Below, piece by piece: positions 1 through 347 of a stretch of DNA of 46,583 nucleotides (position 1 is the first letter of the stretch; every line of letters begins with the position of its first letter). The stretch is from Clostridia bacterium (GTDB lineage: Bacteria; Bacillota; Clostridia; Christensenellales; Aristaeellaceae): contig JAFTPN010000027.1 of assembly GCA_017463245.1 (NCBI GenBank), forward strand, positions 1 through 46,583, given 5' to 3'. The translations under genes were made by a program, and so were the position numbers. Below the pieces are notes generated by a model. It was not told where the DNA came from, ran no database searches, and worked only from the letters and a program-made list of their open reading frames with translations.

Positions 1-8
1 CTCCTTTC
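1..8 (-). promoter_or_regulatory. ribosome binding site of a gene just outside the window
   Basis: Read on the minus strand the first eight bases are GAAAGGAG, a near-perfect Shine-Dalgarno sequence at the usual distance from a start codon that would lie beyond base 1. It follows the leader terminator by about 18 bases, so the unseen gene is probably the target of the attenuator at 26-212. The gene itself cannot be seen. Confidence 0.55.
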
Positions 9-25
9 ACCATCGGTCATGCAGA

Positions 26-58
26 TAAAAAGAGGGGAGCCTCCGATGAAGCTCCCCT
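26..58 (-). terminator. intrinsic terminator, possible attenuator
   Basis: On the minus strand an 8-bp perfect stem (AGGGGAGC / GCTCCCCT, loop of 10) is followed by CTTTTT. It lies between the Cys/Met-rich leader peptide and a ribosome binding site at the window edge. An 8-nt segment of the leader (positions 110-117) can pair with the terminator loop (41-48), with one G-U pair, so an antiterminator is conceivable. That alternative fold is inference. Confidence 0.75.
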
Positions 59-96
59 TCTCGACCGGATGCGGCGCTTGTCAGCGAACCATCCGT

Positions 97-186
97 TTAT
101 CTGAAAGCCCATCGAAGATTGACACGCAAAGACATGCACATGCTGCACATGCACATCTCCATGGACATCATAGCGGTCTTCTTCAT
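97..186 (-). CDS. 29-aa Cys/Met-rich leader peptide
   Basis: ATG at 186-184, stop TAA at 99-97. The peptide has eight Met and three Cys; the stretch MEMCMCSMCMS packs Met-Cys alternation into residues 9-19. A strong ribosome binding site (AAGGAG at 195-200) and a near-consensus promoter lie upstream, and an intrinsic terminator plus another ribosome binding site follow. This layout is that of a translated attenuator leader responding to cysteine or methionine (or their charged tRNAs), as known for amino-acid biosynthetic operons. A small metal-binding peptide is the alternative. The regulated gene lies beyond the left edge, so its function is unknown. I see the frame and signals; the regulatory role is inference. 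Confidence 0.6.
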   Translation of the reverse strand: MKKTAMMSMEMCMCSMCMSLRVNLRWAFR

Positions 187-218
187 GGTGCTTTCTCCTT
201 CCCTCAAGTGATGTGGGC

Positions 219-248
219 ATCATACCACATTTCATAGCGACCTGTCAA
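219..248 (-). promoter_or_regulatory. sigma-A promoter of the leader peptide
   Basis: Minus strand TTGACA (248-243), 18-nt spacer, TATGAT (224-219). Expected start of transcription is near 212, which leaves a short 5' UTR with AAGGAG before the leader ATG at 186. Confidence 0.8.
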
Positions 249-347
249 CCTGTTTAGCAATTTTCCCGATTGTTTTTCCATTGTTTTGGCAAATCGTCCG
301 CCTCAAAACTGGGTTTGGCGTAATTTCGTAAAAATTTCGCAAAACCC

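Follow-up and report, generated by a model that had tools for sequence, protein, structure and literature searches.

A candidate methionine/cysteine-responsive transcription attenuator upstream of a predicted methionine-type ABC transporter operon in Clostridia

The window, by which we mean the whole 46,583-nt stretch of DNA that was analyzed, is contig JAFTPN010000027.1 of a Clostridia bacterium (assembly GCA_017463245.1). Its plus strand carries at 422 through 2140 a YkuD L,D-transpeptidase gene with four peptidoglycan-binding stretches, which shares its intergenic region with a divergent leader; all leader features below lie on the minus strand and are given 5′ to 3′. A putative promoter, assigned by consensus match alone, consists of TTGACA (248 through 243), an 18-nt spacer and TATGAT (224 through 219) preceded by TG; as a reading of the letters alone (herein the sequence-only reading) had described it, it is near consensus, with agreement at 11 of 12 bases. 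The Shine-Dalgarno sequence AAGGAG (200 through 195) and the short frame that the same reading had placed behind it were borne out: uORF1 (186 through 97, stop included) has 29 codons and encodes MKKTAMMSMEMCMCSMCMSLRVNLRWAFR, with eight Met and three Cys. Seven of the Met codons and all three Cys codons fall in codons 6 through 18 (171 through 133), herein the control region.

Three stretches of the leader RNA can be defined by their alternative partners. Segment 1 (195 through 180) runs from the end of the ribosome binding site (RBS) to the start of uORF1 and pairs with segment 2 (1:2). Segment 2 (118 through 103) comprises the last uORF1 codons (TCTTCGATGGGCTTTC) and pairs with segment 1 or with segment 3. 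Segment 3 (58 through 41) is the 5′ arm and loop of an intrinsic terminator (58 through 27), and its pairing with segment 2 (2:3) would form the antiterminator. The terminator itself (3:4) is as clean as previously claimed, with a hairpin at 58 through 33 and a T run at 31 through 27. Between the uORF1 stop codon and the terminator lies a spacer hairpin, CGGATG...CATCCG, noticed earlier and located here at 95 through 66. The pairing of 110 through 117 with 41 through 48, also proposed from the letters, is possible with one G-U (CTTCGATG at 117 through 110; CATCGGAG at 48 through 41), and it is kept across divergent leaders (see below). The last eight bases of the strand (8 through 1) are GAAAGGAG, an RBS.

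The suspicion that the Met/Cys content of uORF1 is not random proved correct. Across 30 long window ORFs with 13,403 codons in all, Met and Cys together make up 3.65%; in uORF1 they occupy 10 of the 28 non-start codons (binomial P = 3e-8). Of the 86 short frames in the window that have an RBS and encode 15 to 60 amino acids, uORF1 has the highest Met/Cys content. RNA from 212 to 1 folds with a z-score of −5.05 relative to shuffled sequences, none of which (0/200) was as stable, and the fold includes a 14-bp hairpin within uORF1, formed by a repeated ATGTGC palindrome. A riboswitch or T-box was considered as part of the leader and rejected, as Rfam gave no match in the window, SAM (RF00162) and T-box (RF00230) included. 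The same scan of 40 upstream regions without a flagged uORF1 gave one match, a tRNA.

Bases 1 through 141 of the window are the reverse complement of bases 1 through 141 of a second contig of 3270 bases (C29; locus L003), with identity extending no base further, and an exact match of this kind agrees with the overlap expected in an assembly graph. In six of nine compared relatives (L152, L153, L155, L159, L162 and L171) the transpeptidase gene and metQ flank the leader on one contig; the remaining three loci have no transpeptidase match. This arrangement in relatives supports adjacency of the window and C29. C29 carries a second leader frame (uORF2), metQ (262 through 1107; NlpA/MetQ binding protein), an ATPase gene and a permease gene. 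The binding protein matches PF03180 with 232 bits (cut-off 27) and the NCBIfam MetQ models below their cut-offs; the ATPase has a NIL domain and MetN as its best NCBIfam match (347 versus a cut-off of 500), and the best match of the permease is MetI (200 versus 212). As judged from these matches, the genes to the left of window base 1 are metQ-metN-metI, a methionine-type ABC transporter whose substrate is predicted. The sulfur- or methionine-linked gene that the sequence-only reading had looked for beyond base 1 is thus present on C29. The same reading took GAAAGGAG at the window edge for the RBS of a further gene; the RBS stands, and the gene it serves is amended to uORF2, since metQ has an AAGGAG of its own.

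The MetQ-type protein is circularly permuted. Its residues 183 through 276 correspond to residues 3 through 96 of 4k3f, a solved NlpA/MetQ relative, and residues 25 through 162 correspond to 101 through 238, so that the order of the two halves is swapped relative to that of the family. In the family, 108 relatives with at least 53% identity align collinearly with the permuted protein, whose N terminus by eye resembles a signal peptide. A permuted binding protein has been published in Treponema, TpMglB-2 (PMC4990184); a literature search for a permuted MetQ found none in print.

Conserved short Met/Cys frames ahead of sulfur genes in related Clostridia had been anticipated, and an RBS-preceded, Met/Cys-rich frame was found before metQ or metN in all 18 genus genomes drawn by the searches. 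In 16 of 16 genus genomes with a permuted-type metQ, uORF1 starts 306 to 398 bases before the metQ match, as measured with each locus turned to the strand of the gene; in genome G014 the leader precedes a metQ paralogue of 32% identity (L028), and in G001 it precedes metN-metI-metQ (L270). Under a strict rule (at least seven Met/Cys in 14 residues, an RBS, and at least two Met and one Cys), 41 of 117 regions upstream of permuted-type metQ pass across the family, with none on the reverse strand, as do 3 of 16 regions upstream of metQ of the usual order; such limited coverage suggests that other lineages use something else. The 117 regions derive from 103 of the 108 permuted-type relatives together with 14 paralogues and span up to 700 bases, three of them being shorter than that. 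Applied to 80 named loci, mostly from metagenome assemblies of gut Clostridia, the strict rule gave 36 matches, all at locus positions 1400 through 2500, which in most loci is the stretch before metQ, and none in the 889,708 strand-bases elsewhere. When the rule is relaxed and applied to one strand, 37 of the 80 loci match, including three records labeled Gemmiger and three labeled Lachnospiraceae.

An intrinsic terminator follows 46 of 47 leaders and all 13 of a further set; in the one exception, L123, the T run behind the hairpin is weaker. The first count omits weaker candidates with five or six Met/Cys per 14 residues (L026, L062, L068, L096, L098, L099, L103 and L106) and retains L045 and L051, each with six. 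Beyond the genus, a strict pattern run on 290 further genomes of the class gave nothing clear (eight sporadic matches versus three for a reversed control, judged on the matched letters only); this pattern is insensitive, recovering two of the three known leaders of the window's own genome.

The other two leaders of that genome lie on contigs C74 and C13. The C74 leader, MTNRASMMCMCMWRACCLSQRGVYRHCI, precedes the gene for a binding protein of the polar amino acid type, which in NCBIfam best matches the lysine/arginine/ornithine and cystine types, both below cut-off; metY (TIGR01326; 631 bits, cut-off 495) comes next, and cysK (TIGR01139; 453 bits, cut-off 351) lies farther downstream. The C13 leader, MAKQMQAMMMCKGMCMGMCSVFPCACCRM (L273, near base 2521 of the reverse complement), precedes an amidohydrolase gene (TIGR01891, over cut-off) in an operon with a peptide/nickel-type binding protein (below cut-offs) and predicted transporter genes; the leader suggests that this operon may have a role in sulfur scavenging. 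Relatives have a leader before metY (L275; 628 bits) and before cysK (L272; 359 bits over 235 residues). A pattern search of 18 genomes gave 98 matches versus 4 for the reversed pattern. Seven regions outside the metQ set, in which the matched letters are Met/Cys-rich in frame, were inspected, the others being judged by eye; five of the seven precede genes named above, L271 marks the beginning of a long protein, and L276 leaves its contig before the next gene.

To compare pairings between leaders, we defined segment 1 as the uORF1 start, segment 2 as the uORF1 3′ end and segment 3 as the terminator 5′ arm and loop, and scored each segment against its own partner and against partners swapped in from other leaders. 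The set of 37 leaders comprised 27 earlier ones and 10 of the 13 further ones (L192, L196 and L276 were left out). Own partners pair better both for 1:2 (−28.0 versus −23.2 kcal/mol swapped; z = −8.1) and for 2:3 (−17.9 versus −15.0 kcal/mol; z = −6.3), and own partners are no better for the 1:3 control (z = +0.9). The own partner beats the median swapped partner in 33/37 leaders for 1:2, 31/37 for 2:3 and 18/37 for 1:3. Means and significance were the same in an earlier run on 27 leaders of less than 75% identity, with the own partner being the single best in only 9/27 (1:2) and 2/27 (2:3); among six leaders of less than 65% identity, 1:2 has p = 0.002 and 2:3 is marginal (p = 0.05). Because segment 2 is common to both, 1:2 and 2:3 are mutually exclusive, and 2:3, through the shared segment 3, also excludes the terminator.

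In an alignment of 20 leaders the 2:3 helix is 90.3% paired, compared with 43 to 57% for slid controls. Two-sided changes occur at 4 of its 12 pairs, a number equaled in 0 of 500 shuffled controls; the control slid by −3 shows two-sided changes at five pairs (12 cells), yet only 57% pairing. Covariation in this alignment is modest. The pairing of the leader 3′ end with the terminator, which had been put forward for the window alone, is thus kept across divergent leaders in both the swap test and the alignment. The 1:2 helix was assessed by the swap test since, by eye, it slides by bulges between subgroups.

Met and Cys account for 46 to 61% of residues in bins 9 to 23 codons before the last codon and for 12 to 26% in the final nine, the stretch that holds most of segment 2. 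If the leading edge of the ribosome is taken to lie 12 bases beyond the A-site codon, stalling at each of the 10 Met/Cys codons of the window's uORF1 would leave segment 2 free, as would a stall at 276 of 385 Met/Cys codons in the 37 leaders. The metY-type leaders L041 and L275 (3/9 codons each) and L188, L209, L272 and L048 fit this geometry less well; in all six the predicted segment 2 starts early, so that 2 to 4 of 7 to 11 Met/Cys codons fit.

The leader therefore has, by sequence and computation, the features of an attenuator: an RBS-preceded frame, a cluster of control codons, a terminator and an exclusive antiterminator. We consider it very probable that the element is a ribosome-mediated transcription attenuator of the trp type, a candidate for control by Met and/or Cys; this degree of confidence refers to the class of mechanism. 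A Cys- or Met-responsive attenuator was also the simplest explanation offered by the sequence-only reading, and gene context, recurrence and kept pairings now support it, with the 1:2 pairing as an addition. From these observations we infer translation of uORF1, stalling on it and an effect on transcription; Met, Cys or both may be the amino acid that matters. The sensed signal would be charged tRNA for Met and/or Cys, and the targets would be genes for uptake and synthesis of sulfur amino acids. When uORF1 is untranslated, its start would pair with its 3′ end (1:2), the terminator would form and the operon would be off. With Met and Cys plentiful, the ribosome would reach the stop codon and cover segment 2, so that the terminator again forms. 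With Met-tRNA or Cys-tRNA in short supply, a ribosome stalled at codons 6 through 18 would cover segment 1 and free segment 2, which could then pair with the terminator 5′ arm (2:3) and let transcription proceed into uORF2 and metQNI. The leader would thus most likely permit expression of sulfur genes only when Met or Cys is short.

Short peptides rich in Met and Cys can bind soft metals, and uORF1 might instead encode a functional peptide of this kind, for metal binding or redox chemistry for example, co-transcribed with the sulfur operon, the terminator being its own. The recurrence of the peptide core agrees with such a role; the residue pattern, however, is loose and position-dependent, with Met/Cys concentrated away from segment 2, the 3′ codons of uORF1 serve two alternative RNA pairings, and the leader precedes unrelated gene families, all of which make a functional peptide improbable. 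Three uORF1 and three uORF2 peptides gave no NCBIfam or Pfam match at E values up to 10, in searches that handle short queries poorly. A sensor made of RNA (a riboswitch, a T-box or a protein-binding leader), with the small frame incidental or modulating the fold, appears similarly improbable. The strong fold (z-score above) would suit it, and such control is available in the genus, where each of the 18 genomes has T-boxes elsewhere (in 17 over cut-off) and 17 have SAM riboswitches; what recurs among the leaders, however, is the frame, its Met/Cys codons and the pairings, and no fixed aptamer-like sequence. Least credible of all is that the Met/Cys run is a by-product of the repeated ATGTGC palindrome acting as a pause hairpin with no amino acid sensing: the repeat does fold into the 14-bp hairpin in the window, but leaders without it stay Met/Cys-rich in frame (for example, MCNSLGKMMPMMMCCPAGMMMRAVVVVRFS and MAILAKEFSMSMCGNEMRFCDCRIMRSRA), and 18 of 33 gap runs inside uORF1 in the 20-leader alignment span 3, 6 or 9 columns (12 of the 33 being single columns, all at column 106).

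Beyond the attenuator proper, uORF2 (MNATAKLLVRSNRESRRM; C29 152 through 208) ends in CGA-ATG-TGA 53 bases before metQ, and uORF2-type frames in the genus have an NRESRRM-type end. The Arg codon is CGA at 84 of 100 RBS-preceded Arg-Met places of leader frames (several places per locus, some inside uORF1), and among the Arg codons of the long window ORFs CGA is the least used (33/699). For 69 of 117 permuted-type metQ genes the final 200 bases upstream contain CGAATG followed by T or C, against 3.0 expected from shuffles, and the motif is present also where uORF1 was not found. An RBS-preceded ORF contains it in frame in 67 of the 69 cases, versus 8 and 25 for the other two frames, and it is therefore most likely read as codons. 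We tentatively raise the possibility, which we hold to be rather unlikely, of two-tier sulfur control in which the uORF1 attenuator is joined by a codon-context sensor in uORF2, an in-frame Arg(CGA)-Met followed by a stop or Cys codon; a rare CGA in the P site might render the translating ribosome exceptionally responsive to hungry Met (or Cys) codons. If so, the uORF2-type element, alone in lineages without uORF1, would be a leader of an undescribed kind. Two other roles for uORF2 were considered and rejected: as a Rho site, there being no C-richness after CGAATG (mean C 24% and G 20% over 69 loci), and as a frameshift at CGA-ATG into the metQ frame, the read-through ends varying with no visible pattern.

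Attenuators of the classical kind have been described for many amino acids, and ribosome-mediated attenuators of the trp/his/leu type are known in Proteobacteria. The present leader shares with these a control-codon frame, exclusive 1:2, 2:3 and 3:4 pairings, a terminator and a cognate operon; it differs in its Met and Cys control codons, its gut Clostridia hosts and the second frame after the terminator. In Firmicutes, methionine synthesis and transport genes are mostly under SAM-I riboswitches, with T-boxes in Lactobacillaceae (PMC4239095). His leader peptides of Bacilli show regular attenuation although Firmicutes usually use T-boxes (PMC2965389); these concern histidine and hisS/hisZ, and the sections consulted mention no sulfur leader. 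Among the published leaders compared, the nearest are one before cysS, which has tandem Cys codons, and those with Cys runs in actinobacteria. The former, the uORFC-8-2 motif of Rhodobacterales, is a proposed ribosome-mediated attenuator that likewise has Cys codons and an intrinsic terminator (PMC8632094); as excerpted, it has two tandem Cys codons and a cysteinyl-tRNA synthetase gene downstream, in alphaproteobacteria, and neither Met codons nor a second frame are mentioned. The window leader is not uORFC-8-2, having no tandem Cys and preceding metQ. The latter, in the quoted sections of PMC1262725, are Cys-rich frames of actinobacterial cys operons with Cys runs near the stop and no conserved terminator hairpin; Cys-rich frames before sulfur genes are common to both, whereas the leader described here has a Met/Cys mix, a Shine-Dalgarno sequence, a terminator and an antiterminator. 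In the same sections no conserved RNA structure is reported upstream of actinobacterial methionine operons, and a reference entry points to Cys-rich, leaderless "polycysteine" sORFs before sulfur genes in mycobacteria (PMC13236596). A search of the open-access literature found no Met-codon or Met/Cys attenuator in print. If the proposed attenuator is correct, a dual Met/Cys leader would give a genetically readable sulfur regulon in gut Clostridia and would flag sulfur-linked genes in many genomes that lack annotation; it would also mean that starvation for elongator Met can be sensed even though Met starts every protein.

Some lineages without a clear Met/Cys leader show a different feature. 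By eye, the sequence ahead of the −35 element in L054, L056, L057, L026, L027 and L109 includes a palindrome similar to TATAGATT-AATCTATA. We take it to resemble the MET-box of streptococcal MtaR, so that a LysR-type regulator may control metQ there.
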